Assembly: GCA_022072445.1 (NCBI GenBank)
Contig: JAJVHV010000010.1
Location: forward strand, 62,001 to 126,000
Direction: 5' to 3'
Origin: Phycisphaerae bacterium
Lineage (GTDB): Bacteria > Planctomycetota > Phycisphaerae > UBA1845 > Fen-1342
DNA length: 64,000 bases
The position numbers and the translations under genes were made by a program. Below are positions 6,483-52,400 of this stretch, one piece after another (position 1 is the stretch's first letter; each line of letters begins with the position of its first letter). The notes beneath the pieces were generated by a model. It worked only from the letters and a program-made list of their open reading frames with translations. It was not told the DNA's origin and ran no database searches.

Positions 6483-8006
6483 TCACTCCGCGGGTTGCAT
6501 TCGCGAAACTCGCAGCACAGACGCGCCAGCTTCAACCGAGTCGATGCTCCAGCGCACCTGGCACAGCGCTGAGAGGAAACGCTCGTCGTGGCTGACGAGC
6601 AGTAGCGCACCCGCCGCGCTGCGCAGCGCGGTTTCGAGGCACTCGATCGACGGCAGATCGAGGTGATTGGTCGGCTCGTCGAGCACGATCAGGTGCGGTG
6701 AGTCGAGCAGGCCGAGGGCCAGAATGAGCTTGCGCAACTCGCCGGGGCTGGGCGCCTCGGTCAGCGAGACGCGGCTCACGTCGGACCCGAGTCGGCTGAC
6801 GGTCGACAGCACCGCGCCGCGCGCCGCCCGCGACAACCCCTCGAACCGCGCGCGAGCGGCCAGCGCGTCGGCCTCGGCAATCTCCTGAGGCAGGTACACG
6901 AGGCGCGGCGCCGGCAAATCGGTCCGCGCCAGAACGTGTCTCACGAGCGTGCTCTTCCCGCCGCCGTTCGGGCCGCAAATCGCGATGCGGGCGTCGGCGG
7001 CGATCTCGAGCGTCTCGTGCCGCAGGATGCGGCCGCCGCCGAGCGCGACGGCACCCTGCGGAATGGACACCAGGCGAGCGCGGCGCGCCGTTTCGCCGCC
7101 GATCGACACGCCGAGGCGCGGCGTGCGGCGCGGCGTGATCGTCTGAAACGCGTCGGCGGCCTGGTCGATTCTGCCCTGCATCTGGCGCAGGCTCCGGCCG
7201 GCCTGGCCGTCCTTGCCGGAAACGCGCGCCCGGTCGATCCGGTCGCGCCCGTCGGTGTCGTGCCGGTCGAGGGCGCGTTTCGAGCGGAGCGCGTCGGCCC
7301 GGCTGGCTTCGGCCCGGCGCCGATTCGCCTCGCCGCGCAGTCGCCGCAGCTCGGCCGCCGCCTCGTGCCGCGCGGCGCGCAGGCCGGTCTGTTCGACGCG
7401 CTCGGCCTCCGCGGACTGCGAATAGCCGCCGGGGCGAAGGATGGCGTGCGGCGGGTGCAGCATCAGTGTCTGCGTGCAGAGCTCGTCGAGCAGGTCGCGA
7501 TCGTGACTGACCAGCAGTCCGACGCCGCGAAAGCCGCGGAGCGCGTCGATCAGCAGGCGGCGCGCGGCCCGGTCGATGTGGTTGGTCGGCTCGTCGACGG
7601 CCAGGATCTCGGGCGCGGCGCGCAGGGCAGTGGCGATCTGCGCCCGCTTTCGCTCGCCGTGGCTGAGCGACGCCCAACGTGTCGACCAGTCGGCGGCGAG
7701 TTTCAGCCGTCCGCGCAGCGCGCAGGACCGCGCGTCGGCGGCCAGCAGCAGGTCGTGCAAGTCGGGCGGCGGATCGTCGGTGCGCTGCGGGCAGTAATGG
7801 GCCGATCCGCTGCTGGAGCGAAGGCCGCGATCGGGAACCAGCAGCCCGCACGCCAGGCGCAGGAGTGTGCTTTTCCCGCTGCCGTTCGGGCCGACGATGC
7901 CGGTCCAGCCGGGCGCGAGGCGCAATGTCAGTCCGACCAGGATCGGCGCCGGAGCGGTGGGATAGCAATAGGAGACTTCAAGCAGATCGAGTCGGGGACG
8001 GCTCAT
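6483..8006 (-). CDS. ABC-F family ATP-binding protein (two ATPase domains)
   Basis: 507 residues from the ATG at 8006, with GAGGA five bases upstream; a GTG directly before it (8009) is an alternative. Two ABC cassettes and no membrane domain define the ABC-F class, soluble ATPases that act on the ribosome or in antibiotic resistance. Domain 1 has Walker A GPNGSGKST, signature LSHGE and DEPTNHID. Domain 2 has GPNGGGKST, an unusual signature SPGEL in place of LSGGE, and DEPTNHLD. The inter-domain linker is long, charged and Arg-rich. Convergent with fusA. The subfamily (Uup, EttA, antibiotic-resistance type) cannot be fixed by eye. Confidence 0.88.
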   Translation of the reverse strand: MSRPRLDLLEVSYCYPTAPAPILVGLTLRLAPGWTGIVGPNGSGKSTLLRLACGLLVPDRGLRSSSGSAHYCPQRTDDPPPDLHDLLLAADARSCALRGRLKLAADWSTRWASLSHGERKRAQIATALRAAPEILAVDEPTNHIDRAARRLLIDALRGFRGVGLLVSHDRDLLDELCTQTLMLHPPHAILRPGGYSQSAEAERVEQTGLRAARHEAAAELRRLRGEANRRRAEASRADALRSKRALDRHDTDGRDRIDRARVSGKDGQAGRSLRQMQGRIDQAADAFQTITPRRTPRLGVSIGGETARRARLVSIPQGAVALGGGRILRHETLEIAADARIAICGPNGGGKSTLVRHVLARTDLPAPRLVYLPQEIAEADALAARARFEGLSRAARGAVLSTVSRLGSDVSRVSLTEAPSPGELRKLILALGLLDSPHLIVLDEPTNHLDLPSIECLETALRSAAGALLLVSHDERFLSALCQVRWSIDSVEAGASVLRVSRMQPAE

Positions 8007-8263
8007 CACAGTCCTCGCATGTTAGAGAATGGGAGGTGGTGGAACGACCGGGGCGAAGCTGTGATTTCAGAGTCTCACGTCTGCGTCCGCTGCGAGGAGT
8101 GTTTGTCCAACGACAGTATAACCGGCGTGCCGGCAGAGGTCATCGCCAGGCCAAGGCAAAGGCCCGCCGGGTGCGTCCTCGCGCGTCTGGATTCGGCCGG
8201 GGGGCGGGGTCTTGCTGAGCCGACAACTCCCCAACGCCAAGCAAGGTTGGAGTCGAAGCGCCG

Positions 8264-26192: not shown

Positions 26193-27455
<1,263 letters not shown>

Positions 27456-27521: not shown

Positions 27522-29288
27522 TCACCCCTTCACGCCCGTCACCACCACGCCGCGGATGAACGCCCGCTGCGCCACGAAGAACAGCAGAATGCTCGGAACG
27601 ATCATCAGCACCGACGCCGCCATCAGCAGCTCCGACGTCTCACCGCCGTAGAACGCGCTTTTGAAATTCTGCAAGCCCAGCGCGACGGTCTGCTTGGCGT
27701 CGGAGTTGATGTAGAGCAGCGGGCCGAGCAGATCGTTCCAGGTTCCCATGAACGCGAAGACCGCGACCGTGACGACGATCGGCCGCGAAAGCGGCATCAT
27801 GATCAGCCACCAGGTCGCCAGCGGATTGCAGCCGTCGATGCGGGCCGAGTCTTCGAGGTCGTTGGGAATCGTCAGCATGAACTGCCGGAAGAGAAAGACG
27901 AAAAACGCCGACTGCGCCAGCAACTGCGGGACAATCAGCGGCTTGTAGGTGTCGAGCCAGCCGAGCTTCGCGAACAGCACGAAGGTCGGAATGCTGGTCA
28001 CCTGCCCGGGAATCATCATCGTCGCCAGCAGCATCAGAAACAGCGCGTCGCGCCCGCGGAACTCGAGCCGCGCGAACGCATAGCCCACCAGCCCGCAGCT
28101 CAGCACGTTCCCGATCACCACCGCCGCCGCGATGAACAGTGTGTTGGCCACGTAGCCGGCGAAATTCTGCTCCCGCCACGCAATCGCGTAGTTGTGCCAC
28201 TGCGGCCGGAGCGGAGCCTCCACGCGGATGCGATCGGCGGCCACGGCGATCATGCCCTGCGCCTCGCACTCCAGCCGCCCGTGCTCATCGGGCTGCGCCG
28301 AGCCGGCCACGCGCACCTCGACCGTCTGCCCGAGCACCCCGGCACTCACCAATTCGCGCGTCACGCGCTGCACCGCCCGGGCGTCGAGCGTCACGCTCCG
28401 CGGAGCGTCGAGCAGCTCCACGTTCGCCACGCCGCGGGACTCGTCGCGCCCGACCACGCGCAGCTCGCTGCGCCGGCCGTCGATCTCGGCGAAGCGGCGG
28501 AAGCGGCGCTCGATCCGCAGATCGCCCGCGGGTACGGTCAGCGCTTCCGCCGGCGGCCGCAGCCGGATGGTCGCAATGCCCGCGGCGCTGTTATCGGAGA
28601 GCAGCTCGACGGCCAGCGTGTGCCCGCGCCACTCGATTGTCATCGGCCCCGAAGCGTCGCCACGATTCAACCGCCGGGCGTCGACCTGCGCCGGCGGCGC
28701 ATCGGCCCAGGCGATCTTCACGTGGCCCTCGCGCGGCGGGGGGCTGGGCGTGCAGGTCACGGGCAGGTCCACGCCCAGCGCGCTCCAGAAAACAGCCAGC
28801 TCTTCCACGACGGTCACGTCAGCGGCGGGGACGTCGCGGCGCTCGAACGCGTCGACGACGCGCACTTCGACCGGGCCGCGCTCCGGCAACGCTGTTTCAC
28901 GTGAAACACGGCGGCGGGTGCGGTCGACGTCCGCGAAAAGCTCGGTTTGCGTGCTTCGGTGGAGACTCTGGGCCGGAATGCGAAGTCTGGCGCCCGCGTC
29001 GTGTGCCAGGCGGACGCGGGCCACGCCCGTGCCCGCGTTTTCGCCGTCGTCGATGATCGTCACCGGCAGTTCGGCGTCGTCGATTCGCAAGTAATAGCAG
29101 GGTGTGACCGGGAGCCAGTCGGGCGGGGCGACGCTGAGGCGGTCGTGCGTCTTGAGACTTGCCAGCAGCAGCCAGTAGAGCGGAAAGATGATCGGCAGCG
29201 CACCCGCCACGAGCACGACGAACATCGTCGCGCGGAACCAGGCCGGTTCGCGGCGGCCTTCGCTGGCGATGGGGCGGCGCGCCATCAT
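27522..29288 (-). CDS. Carbohydrate ABC transporter permease (MalG-like) with ~300-residue insertion
   Basis: 588 residues from the ATG at 29288, overlapping the upstream stop by four bases (ATGA). Normal MalG-type permeases have about 280 residues. Here TM1 (20-45) is followed by PPDWLP, then the sequence departs from the family until HNYAIAWREQNFAGYVANTLF (366-385), where the remaining five helices follow normally. The EAA loop is EDSARIDGCNPLATWWLIMMPL (479-500). The inserted segment (about 65-362) should lie outside the membrane and holds three similar units near 76-111, 227-262 and 276-311 with D.....GVA.V.L...........A. pattern. A parS-type site lies within the insertion (codons 127-132). 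Confidence 0.9.
   Translation of the reverse strand: MMARRPIASEGRREPAWFRATMFVVLVAGALPIIFPLYWLLLASLKTHDRLSVAPPDWLPVTPCYYLRIDDAELPVTIIDDGENAGTGVARVRLAHDAGARLRIPAQSLHRSTQTELFADVDRTRRRVSRETALPERGPVEVRVVDAFERRDVPAADVTVVEELAVFWSALGVDLPVTCTPSPPPREGHVKIAWADAPPAQVDARRLNRGDASGPMTIEWRGHTLAVELLSDNSAAGIATIRLRPPAEALTVPAGDLRIERRFRRFAEIDGRRSELRVVGRDESRGVANVELLDAPRSVTLDARAVQRVTRELVSAGVLGQTVEVRVAGSAQPDEHGRLECEAQGMIAVAADRIRVEAPLRPQWHNYAIAWREQNFAGYVANTLFIAAAVVIGNVLSCGLVGYAFARLEFRGRDALFLMLLATMMIPGQVTSIPTFVLFAKLGWLDTYKPLIVPQLLAQSAFFVFLFRQFMLTIPNDLEDSARIDGCNPLATWWLIMMPLSRPIVVTVAVFAFMGTWNDLLGPLLYINSDAKQTVALGLQNFKSAFYGGETSELLMAASVLMIVPSILLFFVAQRAFIRGVVVTGVKG
28893..28908. other. parS: parS-type partition site (inside a coding region)
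   Basis: TGTTTCACGTGAAACA is a perfect 16-bp palindrome identical to the consensus bound by chromosomal ParB proteins in many bacteria. It lies inside the insertion of the permease gene, where it encodes RVSRET. A second identical site is at 59582-59597. A random exact match in 64 kb is very unlikely. Confidence 0.85.
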
Positions 29289-31726
29289 GCCCGCTTACCT
29301 CGCGCCGCCTCGTAGTGCACCCACAGCGGCGAGGATTTGAAGACCAGCGCGGTGAACGCCAGGATGATCGAGAACAGAATCCACGCCAGCGCCGAAGCGT
29401 AGCCCAGCCGGTACTTGAAGAACGCCTCGCGGAAAAGGTGCAGACCGTAGAACAGGGCCGAGTCCGCCGGTCCGGTAAACCCGTCGAAGATGACGAAGGC
29501 CAGGTTGAAGACCTGGAACGAGCCGATGATGCCCATCACGAGGTTGAAGAGGATGACCGGCGAGAGCATCGGCAGCGTGACGTGCACGAATCGCGCCCAG
29601 CGCCCGGCGCCGTCGATCTCGGCGGCCTCGTACAGCTGCGTGGGGATGTTCTGGAGGCCGGCCAGGTAGATGATCATTCCGCCGCCGACCGTCCAGAGAC
29701 TGACGACCACGAAGATGTAGGGGGTAAAGACCTTGCTCTCCAGCCAGGTGATCGGGAAGGGCTGCCCGAAGTACTCGACCAGGTGCGCGATCCAGCCGCC
29801 GACGTTCAGCAGCTCGATCACGCGGTTCACCCAGCCGTGGTTGGCGTCGAAGAGGTGCCACCACAGCACGGCCGTCGCGACCGCGGGCAGCACCGCGGGA
29901 ATGTAATAGAGCGTGCGGAAGAGCGTGATGCCTGGGACGCGCTGGTTCATCATCACGGCCAGAATGACGCCGGCCACCAGCCCGGCCGGCACCGAGAGCA
30001 GCGCGTAGCGGAACGTGACCCAGAGCGATACCCAGAACTTCGGATCGCTGCCGGACAGCGCCAGGCGGTAGTTTTCCGCCCCGATGAACTCGCTGCGCGT
30101 GAACTGCGCCAGCGACTGCCACTGCGCGAATGAGAGCACAAACGAGACCAGGATCGGGCCGGCGGCAAAAACCAGAAAGCCAAGCAGCCACGGCGCCACC
30201 AGCGCGTAGCCCCAGCGCTCCTCACGCCGCGCCAGCAGCGACGGCGGCTTGCGCCGCCCCGCAAAGCGCAGCAGCAGCAAGACGGCCGGCGCCGCCGCCA
30301 ATCCAACCGCCAGCATGCCGAACGACGTGCTGCGGCGGACCGGGCGGTCGCGCTGCAGGATGCGATTGCCCTGCGTGGTCATCAGCTCGCACGCGCGGCG
30401 GGCGTCGTAGGGCGGATTGTCAAGTGCCAGCAGCCGATCGAGCTGATCGTTGATGCACTCGTAAACGTCCATGTAATACTGTCGCGTGAAGAAGGGCGGC
30501 TGGGCGTAGCCGTGCTCGATGTCGTGCGTCAGCACCCACTTGCTGGCCGGACGCGCGTCCGGGTCGCGCGCCAGCGTGCGCTCCAGCATCGAGCGCCGCG
30601 CCGGCATGAAGACCTGATACTGGCTCGTGATGTCCACCCCCGCCGGACTGACCATGAACTTGAGAAAGCGCAGTGCCGCTTCCGGATGCCGGCACTGCTT
30701 CGAGACGCCCCACGCGTTGGTGTAGACAATCGAGGCGCGCGTTCCGTCGGGGCCGCGCGGAAGAGGCGCGATGTCCCAGTCGAGGTTACGGGCTTCGGCG
30801 CGGGTGCGCGGGATGCCGAAGATGCCGTAGACGAACATGCCCAGCGTGCCGCGCGTGATGCCGATGTCCTGCTTGTGCGGCACCTGCCCGGGCGGGCAGA
30901 CGCGATCGACGTATTTCAGCCGCGAGAGGAACTCGAGCGCCTCGACCGTCCGCGGATCGTCCGCCACGACGCGCGTGCCGTCTTCGCTCACCAGCCGGCC
31001 GCCGTTCTGCCGGATGAACGTCTCCGGCCCGTGCTGCCACTTGGCGTAGTGAAAGCCGTAGCTGACGACGCGCGTCGGGTCGAATCCGGGTTGATCGGGC
31101 CGCCGGCCGGCATCGTCGCGGGTCAGCGCCAAGGCGCGCTGCCGCAGCCCCTCCCAATCCCAATCCGCGGTCGGATAGGGCACGTGATATTTGTCGAACA
31201 GGTCTTTCAGGTAGAAGACGACGAAGATGTTGTAGTTCACCGGCATGACGTACAGCCGGCCGTTGCGCATCAACGGCTGCACCGTTTGCGGGAAAAAGTC
31301 CGGCGGCGTCCCGTCCGCACCGCCGAAGAGCGCGGCTTTCAGCTCCGGGTCGGCGTCGAGGTGGGGCGTGAGATCGAGCAGAGCGTCGGCTTCGACGTAA
31401 TAGTCGAGGTTGTCGCACAACACGTAGATCAGGTCGGGCGCCACGCCGGCGGCGATCATCGTGTCGGTCTTGCGCTCCAGGCTGGTCTGAAGTAGATTGA
31501 GGTGAATGTCGGGGTTGGCAGCCTCGAAGGCCGCCTTGATGGCCCGCAGCTCGTCGCGGTCCGGCTTGTACCCGCCGCGGCAGATCGTCAGCAAGATCTT
31601 GTCTTTGGGAAGAGCGGCGGCGTCGCGCAGCGTCAGGCCGCAGACCACGGCGACGGCCAGCAGCCCCAGCAGCAGACCGAGCAGCCAGCGATCGCTGTTC
31701 GCCAGGATGTTGAAGAAGGCGCGCAT
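29285..31726 (-). CDS. Fusion of a sugar-binding protein and a MalF-like ABC permease
   Basis: 813 residues from the ATG at 31726. One TM helix (about 14-32) precedes an extracellular solute-binding domain of the ABC sugar type (44-455): ILLTICRGGYKPDRDELRAIKAAFEAANPDI, APDLIYV, YVMPVNYNIFVVFYLKDLFDKY, and GVSKQCRHPEAALRFLKFMVSP. A second helix (467-488) leads into a complete six-helix permease (503-800) with EAA loop YEAAEIDGAGRWARFVHVTLPML (699-721). Separate proteins in ordinary importers are thus one chain, tethering the receptor to the channel. The partner permease is the next gene (4-bp overlap). No ATPase gene (MsmK/UgpC type) is nearby. Substrate probably a sugar. Confidence 0.92.
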   Translation of the reverse strand: MRAFFNILANSDRWLLGLLLGLLAVAVVCGLTLRDAAALPKDKILLTICRGGYKPDRDELRAIKAAFEAANPDIHLNLLQTSLERKTDTMIAAGVAPDLIYVLCDNLDYYVEADALLDLTPHLDADPELKAALFGGADGTPPDFFPQTVQPLMRNGRLYVMPVNYNIFVVFYLKDLFDKYHVPYPTADWDWEGLRQRALALTRDDAGRRPDQPGFDPTRVVSYGFHYAKWQHGPETFIRQNGGRLVSEDGTRVVADDPRTVEALEFLSRLKYVDRVCPPGQVPHKQDIGITRGTLGMFVYGIFGIPRTRAEARNLDWDIAPLPRGPDGTRASIVYTNAWGVSKQCRHPEAALRFLKFMVSPAGVDITSQYQVFMPARRSMLERTLARDPDARPASKWVLTHDIEHGYAQPPFFTRQYYMDVYECINDQLDRLLALDNPPYDARRACELMTTQGNRILQRDRPVRRSTSFGMLAVGLAAAPAVLLLLRFAGRRKPPSLLARREERWGYALVAPWLLGFLVFAAGPILVSFVLSFAQWQSLAQFTRSEFIGAENYRLALSGSDPKFWVSLWVTFRYALLSVPAGLVAGVILAVMMNQRVPGITLFRTLYYIPAVLPAVATAVLWWHLFDANHGWVNRVIELLNVGGWIAHLVEYFGQPFPITWLESKVFTPYIFVVVSLWTVGGGMIIYLAGLQNIPTQLYEAAEIDGAGRWARFVHVTLPMLSPVILFNLVMGIIGSFQVFNLAFVIFDGFTGPADSALFYGLHLFREAFFKYRLGYASALAWILFSIILAFTALVFKSSPLWVHYEAARGKRA

Positions 31727-48157: not shown

Positions 48158-49174
48158 GTGATTGTCATCATGCAGTCCGGGGCGAGCCGCGGCGACGTCG
48201 ATCACGTCGTCGGACTGATCCGTCAATATGGGCTTCGCGACCACGTGATTGTCGGAACCGACCGCACGGTGGTGGCAGCGATCGGCGACAAGCGCAGCGT
48301 GGACATGTCGGCGATTGAGAACGCACCGCAGGTGGAGCGGGTCGTGCCGATCCTGGCGCCGTACAAGGTGGCCAGCAAGGAGGTCAAGAAAGAGCCGTCG
48401 GTGATTCCGATCGGGCGCGGGGCGAGCGTCGGCGGAGCGCGGGTCGCGATGATCGCCGGCCCGTGCAGCGTGGAATCGCGCCAGCAGGTGCTGGAGGTGG
48501 CGCAGGCCGTGAAGGAGGCGGGCGCGGTCGGTCTGCGCGGCGGGGCGTTCAAGCCGCGGACGAATCCCTATCAGTTTCAGGGACTGGGCGAGCAGGCGCT
48601 GGAGTATCTGGCGGAGGCGGGCGCTGCGACGGGGCTGGCGGTCGTAACTGAGGTGATGAGCATTGATCAGGTCGAGCTGGTGAGCCGTTACTCCGACGTG
48701 CTGCAGATCGGTACGCGCAACATGCACAACTTCAACCTGCTGGTGGCGTGCGGGCGCAGTCCGCGGCCGGTGCTGCTGAAGCGCGGCTGGAGCGCGACGC
48801 TGGAGGAGTTCCTGCTGGCGGCGGAGTACGTGATCAACGCCGGCAATCCCAACGTGATCCTGTGCGAGCGCGGCATCCGCACGCAGGAGACGTACGTGCG
48901 GAACACGCTGCCGCTGGCCGTGATTCCGGCGGTGAAGCGGGCCAGCCACCTGCCGATCGTGATCGACCCGTCGCAGGGCACGGGACACGCGTACATGGTG
49001 CCCGCGATGTGCCGGGCGTCGATTGCCGCAGGGGCCGACGGGCTGCTGATCGAGGTACACGGCGATCCGGAGCATGCGCTGACCGATGGTGCCCAGTCGA
49101 TCACGCCGGAGGTGTTCGCCGAGACGACGCGGCAATGCCGGGCGATTGCGGCGGCGGTGGGGCGGGAGATGTAG
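48158..49174 (+). CDS. aroF: 3-deoxy-7-phosphoheptulonate synthase (DAHP synthase, type I beta), copy 1
   Basis: 338 residues from GTG 48158. It condenses phosphoenolpyruvate and erythrose-4-phosphate, the first step of the shikimate pathway. The N-terminal ferredoxin-like regulatory domain (IVIMQSGASRGDVDHVVGLIRQYGL...VVPILAPYKVASKE) is that of Thermotoga-type enzymes. The barrel has IAGPCSVES, LRGGAFKPRTNPYQFQGLG, QIGTRNMHNFNLL, LLKRGWSATLEEFLLAAEYV, ILCERGIRT, VIDPSQGTGH and GLLIEVHGDPEHALTDG, which include the PEP, E4P and metal ligands. A second copy lies at 58221-59234. Single gene. Confidence 0.96.
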   Translation: MIVIMQSGASRGDVDHVVGLIRQYGLRDHVIVGTDRTVVAAIGDKRSVDMSAIENAPQVERVVPILAPYKVASKEVKKEPSVIPIGRGASVGGARVAMIAGPCSVESRQQVLEVAQAVKEAGAVGLRGGAFKPRTNPYQFQGLGEQALEYLAEAGAATGLAVVTEVMSIDQVELVSRYSDVLQIGTRNMHNFNLLVACGRSPRPVLLKRGWSATLEEFLLAAEYVINAGNPNVILCERGIRTQETYVRNTLPLAVIPAVKRASHLPIVIDPSQGTGHAYMVPAMCRASIAAGADGLLIEVHGDPEHALTDGAQSITPEVFAETTRQCRAIAAAVGREM

Positions 49175-49235
49175 CGGCGAGGCACGGAGCCACGAAGCGA
49201 CGGAGGCTTCAGGTCCGGGGTTCAGGTTTCAGGGG

Positions 49236-49287
49236 CGAAGGCGGCTGCTCACATTCCAAGGCGGAGTGCAGCCGAAGGCGGCTGCTC
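49236..49287. repeat. Short direct repeat, 37-bp period
   Basis: CGAAGGCGGCTGCTC occurs at 49236-49250 and 49273-49287 in the convergent gap between the DAHP synthase and prepilin-like genes. Confidence 0.6.
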
Positions 49288-49307
49288 TACGTTCCATTAC
49301 GCCTCCA

Positions 49308-50096
49308 TTACGGCAGGGGCGGGGTGCGGGAGGGGTCGTCGCGTTCGGCGTAGTCGGCGGCGACCATGATTTCGTTCAGGCGGCGCTCCATCGTGTCGGG
49401 GAAGCCGTAGTAATCCTGCTCGCGGATGGAGAGCACGTTCTCCCGGTTTTCGAAGCGGAGCACGTGGCCTTCGAGATACAGGATGTTCACGCGGCGGGCG
49501 TCGTGGTTGGTGCGCGTGAAATCGCCGGGGCCGAGGCTGTTGGCGTCCAGGGCCAGCGCGCGGGCGGGGAATTTCAGGTCGTTGAAGCCGAGGTGGTCGA
49601 GCCGGTCGCGCGTGGTCTGATCCCGCTGGCGATAGAGGTACGAACAGAAGGCGTCTTCGTCGGGCTGGCGGACGATCTTTTCCAGTTCTTCGCTCGGGTC
49701 ATTCGTGTCATCGGCCGGGCAATAGAGAACTTTCGGCTGCGTCAGATCATGCTGAATGAGCGCTCCGAGACCGAGCGGAGCGCGTTTTCCGCCGATCCAC
49801 ACCTGGTTGGTGGCCCACTCGTCCCAGTTCTGCGCTGCGAAGGGCATCTGCTCGGCGGGGCCGCGCGGGATGGCATCGCCGTTCTGCTGGGCGTAGAGGT
49901 GGACTCCGGTGCCGGCCTGGCGGAGGTTCGAGCCGCAGATCGTGAGCTTGGACTGGGCGCGGGCCCGGTTGAGCGAGGGCAGCAGGATCGCGATCAGCAG
50001 GGCGATGATCGCGACGACGACGAGCAGCTCGACCAGCGTGAAGGCGCTGCGGCGGCAGCCGAGAGAAAGCTCGAACCGGGCGGGGCGATGGGTCAT
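49308..50096 (-). CDS. Prepilin-like protein with N-terminal methylation motif
   Basis: 262 residues from the ATG at 50096; the frame upstream belongs to the antisense of the prolyl oligopeptidase and is rejected. The N-terminus has the class III/IV prepilin cleavage site and helix, AFTLVELLVVVAIIALLIAI, preceded by a short basic leader; the Phe becomes residue 1 after cleavage and methylation. A planctomycete type II pseudopilin-like head follows (GVHLYAQQNGDAIPRG, VLYCPADDTNDPSEELEKI, HDARRVNILYLEGHVLRF), typical of the DUF1559-like/H-X9-DG protein group (RVNILYLEGHV resembles VNVLFADGHV). No secretion genes are nearby. Confidence 0.88.
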   Translation of the reverse strand: MTHRPARFELSLGCRRSAFTLVELLVVVAIIALLIAILLPSLNRARAQSKLTICGSNLRQAGTGVHLYAQQNGDAIPRGPAEQMPFAAQNWDEWATNQVWIGGKRAPLGLGALIQHDLTQPKVLYCPADDTNDPSEELEKIVRQPDEDAFCSYLYRQRDQTTRDRLDHLGFNDLKFPARALALDANSLGPGDFTRTNHDARRVNILYLEGHVLRFENRENVLSIREQDYYGFPDTMERRLNEIMVAADYAERDDPSRTPPLP

Positions 50097-50243
50097 GGGG
50101 GCCACTCCACAACGACGCCGGCGGGATCGGGGCGCGGCGCCGCACTCGCGTGTGCGGGCATTCTGGAGCATAATGCGGATGCAAACAAGCGCCCACGACG
50201 GCCGCCCGAGAGCCCGGCGGCCGGCATCTGGAGAAACACGGCC

Positions 50244-52400
50244 ATGACGCGTTGGATGAAGCTGAGCGGTCTGCTGCTGCTGTCGTCGATTCTCGCCGCG
50301 GCCCAGGTGGCCCAGGAGCGGCGGCTGGCGTATCCGGCGACAACAAAGGGCGACGTGGTCGACGACTACCACGGCACGAAGGTGGCCGATCCGTATCGCT
50401 GGCTGGAGGATCTGGATGGGGCGGCGACGCGGACGTGGATCGAAGCGCAAAACGAAGTGACCAACCGGTATCTGGCGGGAATTCCGGCGCGCGAAAAGAT
50501 CAAGCAGCGGCTGACGAAGCTGTGGGACTATGAGCGCTACAGCGAGCCGTATCGCGAGGGGCAGCGTTACTTCTATTCGAAGAACAACGGATTGCAGAAT
50601 CAGTCGGTGATCTACGTGCTGGAAGCGCTGGAGGGCGAGCCGCGGACGCTGATCGATCCGAACGAGTGGTCGAAGGACGGCACGGTGTCGCTGGGCGGGA
50701 TGTCGGTAAGCGACGACGGCAAGCTCGCTGCCTACGCCAAGAGCGACGGCGGCTCGGACTGGCGGACGTACTACGTGCGCGACGTCGGCAGCGGCAAGGA
50801 CCTGAACGACAAGCTGGAGTGGGTGAAATTCTCGGGGGCGGCCTGGACGATCGACGGCAAGGGATTTTTCTACAGCCGCTACGACGCGCCGAAAGGCGAC
50901 AAGCTCGAGGAAGTCAACAAGTTTCAGAAACTGTACTATCACGCCGTCGGCACGCCGCAGGCGGACGACGCACTGGTGTACAAGCGTGACGACCAGGCGG
51001 AGTGGGGGTTTGGAGGGCAGGTAACCGAGGATGGCAAGTACCTGATCATCTCGATCTCGCAGGGCACCGAGCGCGGGAACCGGATTTACTATCGCGAGAT
51101 CGCGGCGGGCGGCGGCGCGTCGCCGTGGGGGCCGGTGGTCGAGCTGCTGAACGAATTTGACGCCGAGAATGACTTTGTCGGCAACGACGGGCCGGTGTTC
51201 TGGTTCAAGACCGACAACGGCGCGCCGCGCTATCGCGTGATCGCGGTCGATACGCGGCAGCCGGCGGCAGCGAACTGGAAGACGGTGATTCCTGAGTCCG
51301 CCGACACGCTTCAGAGCGTGAACGTGATCAACGACCAGTTCGTGGCGAACTACCTGAAAGACGCTCGCTCGCTGGTGAAGACGTTTGACCTGGCGGGCAA
51401 GCACATCCGCGACGTCGATCTGCCGGGGATCGGGACGGCGAGCGGTTTTTCGGGCAAGCGGCGCGACAAGGAGACGTTCTACTCGTTCAATAGCTTCACC
51501 GATCCGGGCACGATCTACCGCTACGACCTGACCAGCGGCAAGAGCAGCGTTTTCCGCAAGCTGACGGTGGACTTCAAGCCCGAGGACTATGAAACCAAGC
51601 AGGTTTTCTACGCGGGCAAGGACGGGACCAAGATCCCGATGTTCATCACGCACCGTAAGGGGCTGAAGCTGACGGGCGACAACCCGACGCTGCTGTACGG
51701 CTATGGCGGATTCAACATTTCGCTGTCGCCGCGTTTTTCGGTGACGAATCTGGTGTGGATGGAGATGGGCGGCGTGTTCGCGCAGCCGAATCTGCGTGGC
51801 GGCGGCGAGTATGGCAAGAGCTGGCACGACGCCGGACGGCTGGCGAACAAGCAGAACGTGTTTGACGATTTCTGTGCGGCGGCGGAGTGGCTGATCGCCA
51901 ACAAGTACACGTCGTCGCAGCGGCTGGCGATTTCGGGCGGGAGCAACGGCGGGCTGCTGGTCGGTGCGTGCATGACGCAGCGGCCGGAGCTGTTCGGGGC
52001 GGCGCTGCCGGCGGTGGGCGTGATGGACATGCTGCGGTTCCACAAGTTCACGATCGGCTGGGCGTGGGTGAGCGACTACGGCAGCGCTGAGAAGCCGGAG
52101 CAGTTCAAATGGCTGCACGCCTACAGCCCGCTGCACAACATCAAGCCGGGCGTGAAGTATCCGGCCACGCTGATCACCACCGGCGACCACGACGACCGCG
52201 TCGTGCCGTCGCACAGCTTCAAGTTTGCGGCGGCGCTGCAGGCGGCGCAGGCCGGCGCCGCGCCGACGCTGATTCGCATCGAGACGCGGGCCGGGCACGG
52301 CGCGGGCAAGCCGACGGCGATGCTGATCGAGGAGCAGGCGGACCGGCTGGCGTTCATGACGCGCACGCTGGGGATGGAGGCGGCGGCGGGGCAGCAGTGA
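50244..52400 (+). CDS. Prolyl oligopeptidase family serine peptidase (S9A)
   Basis: 718 residues from ATG 50244. The signal peptide (MTRWMKLSGLLLLSSILAAAQ) predicts periplasmic or secreted location. The peptidase cuts short peptides after Pro. An N-terminal segment YPATTKGDVVDDYHGTKVADPYRWLED and a seven-bladed propeller precede the alpha/beta-hydrolase: YGYGGFNISLSPRFS, GGGEYGKSWHDAGRL, ISGGSNGGLLVG (nucleophile Ser), TGDHDDRVVPSHSFKFAA (Asp) and RAGHGAGKP (His). All three catalytic residues are present, and length is as expected. Single gene, divergent from the prepilin-like gene over 147 bp. Confidence 0.95.
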   Translation: MTRWMKLSGLLLLSSILAAAQVAQERRLAYPATTKGDVVDDYHGTKVADPYRWLEDLDGAATRTWIEAQNEVTNRYLAGIPAREKIKQRLTKLWDYERYSEPYREGQRYFYSKNNGLQNQSVIYVLEALEGEPRTLIDPNEWSKDGTVSLGGMSVSDDGKLAAYAKSDGGSDWRTYYVRDVGSGKDLNDKLEWVKFSGAAWTIDGKGFFYSRYDAPKGDKLEEVNKFQKLYYHAVGTPQADDALVYKRDDQAEWGFGGQVTEDGKYLIISISQGTERGNRIYYREIAAGGGASPWGPVVELLNEFDAENDFVGNDGPVFWFKTDNGAPRYRVIAVDTRQPAAANWKTVIPESADTLQSVNVINDQFVANYLKDARSLVKTFDLAGKHIRDVDLPGIGTASGFSGKRRDKETFYSFNSFTDPGTIYRYDLTSGKSSVFRKLTVDFKPEDYETKQVFYAGKDGTKIPMFITHRKGLKLTGDNPTLLYGYGGFNISLSPRFSVTNLVWMEMGGVFAQPNLRGGGEYGKSWHDAGRLANKQNVFDDFCAAAEWLIANKYTSSQRLAISGGSNGGLLVGACMTQRPELFGAALPAVGVMDMLRFHKFTIGWAWVSDYGSAEKPEQFKWLHAYSPLHNIKPGVKYPATLITTGDHDDRVVPSHSFKFAAALQAAQAGAAPTLIRIETRAGHGAGKPTAMLIEEQADRLAFMTRTLGMEAAAGQQ

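Follow-up and report, generated by a model that had tools for sequence, protein, structure and literature searches.

In a Phycisphaerae bacterium, the substrate-binding protein and the MalF-type permease of a CUT1 sugar importer are fused in one chain of 813 residues, which is encoded by a single ORF on the minus strand (29285-31726) of the 64,000-nucleotide stretch of DNA analyzed here, referred to below as the window. This fusion is real, well conserved and functionally interpretable, and it is widespread in Planctomycetota and Armatimonadota. Whether the receptor has to detach in the course of the type I transport cycle has long been asked, and tethered CUT1 importers, each with one receptor, are well suited to testing this; they exist in large natural supply, and the genome studied here contains the unfused form as a control (contig C3, as against the fused pairs of contigs C6 and C7, the latter being that of the window).

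The fused chain, its partner and known relatives

The translation of the fusion gene contains no stop other than the terminal one. A start at 31726, immediately ahead of a membrane helix, appears to fit the sequence better than 31891, where the longest frame of the ORF finder begins. The N-terminal membrane helix, a signal anchor or signal peptide (residues 11-34 in the AlphaFold model, hydrophobic at 15-33; 31625-31696), is followed by a CUT1 sugar-binding domain (residues 43-462; 30341-31600), a second membrane helix that tethers this domain to the permease (residues 468-489; 30260-30325; hydrophobic at 468-486, model helix 470-489 with a pLDDT of about 57-76) and the MalF-type permease core (residues 497-802; 29321-30238), within which further hydrophobic segments are found. 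Pfam recognized SBP_bac_1 (60-363, 2.7e-25), SBP_bac_8 (63-389, 3e-25) and BPD_transp_1 (582-792, 1.6e-13) on the chain, and the model as a whole reached a mean pLDDT of 84.8 and a pTM of 0.81. A first, sequence-only reading of this DNA had proposed one chain holding an N-terminal anchor, a full binding domain and a complete permease, and the single frame, the Pfam domains and the membrane segments confirm this anatomy.

As expected of the family-1 extracellular binding domain of a CUT1 importer, for which both SBP_bac profiles scored above the cut-off, the binding domain matched 6rjy by sequence (1.7e-25) and the oligosaccharide binder 5f7v by structure (Z 40.0, rmsd 2.7, 377 residues aligned), and its top sequence matches were binders of arabino-oligosaccharides and cycloalternan. 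The permease region was matched best by SugA (7cad_A, residues 500-792, 2.8e-19), and also by MalF. The adjoining downstream gene, which overlaps the fusion gene by four bases (29285-29288), encodes a MalG-type permease of 588 residues (27522-29288, minus strand) with BPD_transp_1 at residues 400-581, so that both chains of a MalF/MalG-type permease pair carry this domain. The 50 listed structure matches of the partner model are permease chains of ABC importers, among them AlgM2, MalG and SugB (Z about 20-22.5; for MalG, 3puv_G, Z 22.3, rmsd 2.9, 261 residues aligned); the core of this model lies mostly above a pLDDT of 90 and a large insert mostly below 50. An Rfam scan of the whole window gave no matches at the gathering threshold. 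A viral origin of the fusion was considered and rejected; when viral contigs were scanned with the fusion, the one stretch returned encoded no relative.

Known importers resemble this one to different degrees. As far as the accessible text describes it, the maltose/maltodextrin importer of Licht et al. (2019; Res Microbiol 170:1-12) has one binding domain, MalE, which is joined to MalF, and a review that cites this work states that the MalE-MalF fusion is transport-competent. The window shares with that system, likened here by description, the joining of a MalE-type domain and MalF in one chain and a single binding domain per transporter, given that Pfam found none in the MalG of the window and assuming a heterodimer; it differs in the duplicated loop-1 insert of its MalG and in an ATPase gene that lies outside the operon. 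The MalE-MalF importer is reportedly that of Bdellovibrio bacteriovorus, and PDB 6ffl, the title of which names the MalE binding domain of this species, is among the structure matches of the binding domain studied here. The MalFGK2-MalE system of E. coli and the mycobacterial LpqY-SugABC system share the permease folds (Z 22.3 for MalG and about 20-22 for SugB with the partner), and LpqY-SugABC also supplies SugA, the closest sequence match of the fused permease; however, in both systems the receptor is separate, being a periplasmic protein or a lipoprotein, and MalG has no such large insert. In GlnPQ and OpuA of Gram-positive bacteria, as outlined in the accessible descriptions, the receptor is covalently joined to the membrane subunit as in the window, but these are amino acid or betaine importers with two receptor-bearing subunits per complex, whereas in the window a binding domain is present on one permease chain and absent from the other. 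In the OpuA chain, the membrane domain comes first and the receptor after it.

Because the MalE-MalF fusion and GlnPQ/OpuA have already been described, the fused-receptor architecture belongs to a known kind. The sequence-only reading had seen in the window a distinct importer architecture; its anatomy stands, but its novelty does not, since a fusion of MalE to MalF was published by Licht et al. (2019), as far as the accessible text shows, a circumstance that this reading had itself listed among those that would refute it. Two features that it took as marks of distinctness, the missing ATPase gene and the odd insert, lose that role: MalK is likewise absent from the neighborhood of many fused loci, and inserts also occur beside unfused MalF, as described below. 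Fresh here are the loop-1 inserts of MalG, for which we claim no priority, and the phylogenetic spread of the fusion, which probably arose repeatedly. The open papers searched held nothing relevant on such fusions in Planctomycetes or Armatimonadota, which is limited evidence, as subscription papers lay mostly outside that search.

Distribution and history of the fusion

In a sample of 392 planctomycete genomes, evenly drawn from a larger group, the fusion query matched 178, and in 26 of these, including that of the window, the match covered the full span within one ORF containing both domains (in G277, this ORF extends past the contig start). With a broader profile of the binding domain, fusions whose binding domains are more distant came to light in 13 additional genomes (G232, G041, G130, G093, G208, G296, G073, G061, G126, G386, G219, G336 and G318). 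The survey of planctomycetes that the sequence-only reading had suggested thus finds the fusion in at least 39 of 392 genomes, a lower bound taken from the listed matches that leaves frames of more than 700 aa without a binding-domain match (e.g., L187, L201 and L202) uncounted. In Armatimonadota, for which 201 genomes were taken from the phylum to which an armatimonad MAG belongs (G392, which contains L079), 184 genomes matched, and at least 49 gave a full-span match free of internal stops, matches with such stops being excluded. The order of the fusion and MalG genes is kept in planctomycete and armatimonad loci, and genes for acetyl xylan esterase, alpha-amylase and a weakly matched glycoside hydrolase lie near some of the armatimonad fusions.

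A scan of GTDB with an alignment of 20 fusions left 80 loci, of which six were fusions (five planctomycete and one armatimonad); the remaining loci that were examined closely contained binding protein and permease as adjacent separate genes. As a control, 23 genomes behind the GTDB loci were searched, and, among the matches listed, one of the 22 non-armatimonad genomes showed a stop-free full-span match (G603:C76:3214-5319, the Elusimicrobia genome of L100), with frames of more than 800 aa that matched the permease only lying outside this count. Since the fusion is spread over two phyla, many importers will be overlooked where annotation relies on a binding protein encoded separately.

All trees were quick ones, built without mixture models and with the root unplaced. 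When 151 permease regions, 46 of them fused and 105 unfused, were placed in one tree, six changes between the fused and the separate state were needed, compared with 39.5 when the labels were shuffled, and at least three are forced by the starred branches; these changes suggest that the fusion probably arose more than once. With 34 fused rows among its 35, the main group of this tree has a support of 80; another group, supported at 94, consists of eight rows, all of them fused. In a tree of 61 full-length fusions, the copy of the window joins four armatimonad copies (support 100, starred), and five changes between Planctomycetota and Armatimonadota are needed. Among the matches listed, armatimonad proteins likewise have the highest identity to the fusion of the window (44% over the matched span); the best planctomycete match reaches 40%, and the other fused copy encoded in this genome 36%. 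The trees and identities together fit an ancient exchange between Planctomycetota and Armatimonadota, or ancient duplication followed by losses. At one armatimonad locus (L083:1511-3905), binding protein and permease are separate genes and group with fused armatimonad copies in the permease tree (support 91), which may reflect fission of the fusion.

Inserts in loop 1 of MalG

The sequence-only reading had also pointed to an odd insertion in the operon mate, and this feature is borne out. Following a first hydrophobic segment at residues 24-42 (TM1), the next in the MalG partner begins at 384 (TM2, 384-402), and between the two, in periplasmic loop 1 (P1), lies an insert of about 300 residues (residues 62-362; 28203-29105, minus strand); in relatives, the gap between TM1 and TM2 is normally about 20 residues. 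The insert is a tandem duplication with a unit of about 140 residues, as self-alignment reveals: unit 1 covers approximately residues 84-226 (28611-29039) and unit 2 approximately residues 233-370 (28179-28592), reaching the core boundary W-x-N-Y. The self-alignment score was 92, compared with a maximum of 64 in shuffles (0 of 300), and without the core flank 86, compared with 63 (0 of 1000). In the model, the repeats of the insert are beta-rich, in a region that mostly lies below a pLDDT of 50.

Armatimonad relatives of this MalG have one loop of about 55 residues at the position of the insert. A profile built from seven single P1 loops of armatimonad and planctomycete proteins scored 12.4 bits against the insert with its core flank, a value reached by none of 609 scored shuffles (1000 made), and 10.2 bits without the flank, reached by none of 1324 (2000 made); without the flank, the best single stretch gave 5.6 bits, which two shuffles reach. 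These scores hint, far less strongly than those for the internal duplication, that the insert is related to the single loops. A BLAST-type search for the insert in the 392 planctomycete genomes returned, beyond the window, one weak match of 80 residues (G336, E 3e-4).

Inserts in loop 1 of MalG are common in Planctomycetota and rare among the other relatives sampled. A gap of at least 60 residues between TM1 and the core was found in 12 of 41 planctomycete MalG proteins encoded beside a fused MalF and in 19 of 31 beside an unfused one, and in non-planctomycete MalG in 1 of 5 and 4 of 75, respectively. A set of 20 armatimonad loci stands outside this count, which also omits L045, L145, L165, L183, L188 and L194 (duplicates, or loci whose best MalG match is the MalF gene) and all rows in which no TM1 was detected or the profile score fell below 100; TM1 of L069 was placed by hand. 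We dropped the idea that the insert is owed to tethering, as the planctomycete counts show no positive correlation between fusion and insert; because inserts also adjoin unfused MalF, they do not imply a function linked to tethering. P1 inserts range in length from 60 to about 890 residues, are unrelated in sequence and fall by eye into several kinds; they hint at an additional contact surface in a classical transporter family.

Some of these inserts are peculiar in their own right. In the planctomycete MalG proteins at L074:3604-7053 and L198:2053-4008 (both minus strand; 1150 and 652 aa), the insert contains short repeats matching part of Glyco_hydro_42 (E 1.3e-15 and 3.1e-10, respectively). 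A second kind, of 240-330 residues and with a recurrent beta-sandwich-like pattern by eye, is found in MalG of L069, L070, L072, L164, L170 and L173, and the two of these that were scanned (L072 and L173) matched no Pfam family. In the unfused CUT1 operon on contig C3, MalG (L041:7164-8777, minus strand) carries an N-terminal prolipoprotein diacylglyceryl transferase domain (PF01790, E 1.5e-30, residues 6-237); a sugar permease bearing a lipoprotein-modifying enzyme is odd.

ATPase supply and transport cycle

No ORF of the window matched the MalK of this genome at E<=1e-3, and the single ABC ATPase gene encountered there, which encodes two domains (6483-8009), lies about 20 kb from the operon; the earlier remark that no ATPase gene is near is therefore correct. 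In the whole genome, 60 ABC_tran domains are among the matches listed, but OB_MalK, the regulatory domain of MalK, occurs once (C31) and TOBE_2 three times (C19, C31 and C33). The C31 gene is an orphan MalK: no permease gene was recognized in the 16 kb around it, and its neighbors, named by eye, are of the housekeeping type. Three MalFG pairs are present, the fused ones of the window and of C6 and the C3 pair with its separate binding protein, and the 18-kb stretches of C6 and C3 contain no MalK-like ORF. SBP_bac_1 was found four times, in these three contigs and in C33, which by eye looks like a complete sulfate-type operon with its own ATPase; C19 encodes the second TOBE_2 ATPase, which has no OB_MalK domain.

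Where a fused locus is flanked on each side by 4.5 kb or more, MalK lies within 4.5 kb in 17 of 31 planctomycete cases and in none of 16 armatimonad ones, and it is missing from this range in 14 of 31 and 16 of 16. As MalK adjoins 17 of the planctomycete loci, the fusion family probably works with MalK-type ATPases. In Bacillus subtilis, the lone ATPase MsmX serves several CUT1 importers, and D77, R104, E110 and K154 have been reported as its multitask-ATPase positions (PMC7658222). The orphan MalK of C31 has the Walker lysine K43 and, at MsmX numbering, D77 and R104, these two being the positions scored from the MsmX set. By analogy with MsmX, the likeliest arrangement is that this MalK is common to the MalFG pairs of the genome; the ATPases of C19 and C33 may be alternative partners.

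We consider it probable, with good confidence, that the operon encodes a CUT1 ABC importer of the MalFGK2 type with a built-in single receptor, a canonical cycle, an insert on the receptor side and the orphan MalK as its motor. The fused chain is predicted to have about eight membrane helices: helix 1 would anchor the N-terminus, the binding domain, held between helices 1 and 2 by linkers of roughly nine and eight residues, would sit outside the membrane, and helix 2 would return to a positively charged cytoplasmic stretch that leads into the six-helix MalF core. Since this chain would pair with the co-translated MalG partner, each importer would have exactly one receptor. The tethered receptor would take an oligosaccharide and dock onto its own permease without diffusing, after which two MalK-type ATPases would close and the sugar would pass, as in the canonical type I cycle. 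The duplicated insert would lie on the receptor side and most likely contact or steady the tethered receptor, and the ATPase would be supplied by the orphan gene elsewhere in the genome, which would also serve the other MalFG pairs.

Other explanations account for parts of these data. That assembly or gene calling united two genes, or that a recent frameshift joined them, was rejected and has practically no probability left: the frame is open, and at least 39 of 392 planctomycete genomes encode homologues in a single ORF, more than chance or a sequencing slip could produce. Very unlikely, too, is a system in which the fused domain, instead of acting as a transport receptor, serves as a sugar sensor or a regulator and signals through the permease or MalK. 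The two-gene operon with its ATPase gene elsewhere would suit a sensor, as would a serine/threonine kinase gene (26193-27455) that lies downstream of the operon and faces it; however, both permease domains are complete by Pfam and fold like the transport-competent MalG and SugA/SugB, relatives have MalK within the operon, and carbohydrate genes lie near some armatimonad copies.

The insert invites its own alternatives to the docking support that we favor. Its extracellular position and beta-rich repeats, and the Glyco_hydro_42-like short stretches in other planctomycete MalG inserts, could indicate a carbohydrate-binding or pre-capture domain, but no such family matched the insert of the window (Pfam, E up to 1), and its weak likeness to single small armatimonad loops (10.2 bits; 0 of 1324 scored shuffles) also speaks against this role, which we regard as improbable though deserving some weight. 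A similar weight, and thus a similarly low probability, falls to the view that fusion and insert are neutral by-products, with tethering bringing no benefit and the P1 loop merely tolerating growth; the wide size range of unrelated P1 inserts, with or without fusion, agrees with it, whereas the retention of the fused state on long branches in two phyla (six changes versus 39.5 shuffled) does not. We offer with considerable reserve, as a speculation slightly less doubtful than these two, that the outer face of the importer was rebuilt in Planctomycetota, and partly in Armatimonadota, through repeated fusion of MalF to the receptor, a fast-evolving, receptor-facing MalG loop 1 replacing the P2 docking of E. 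coli MalF, and one orphan MalK for several importers. Loop 1 would then consist of tandem-duplicated beta modules in the window and of other domain types elsewhere.

Apart from the importer, the window contains a prolyl oligopeptidase frame (49086-52397, plus strand; PF02897, E 2.1e-132), which overlaps the end of the ORF at 48158-49174 and the real start of which is probably further inside.
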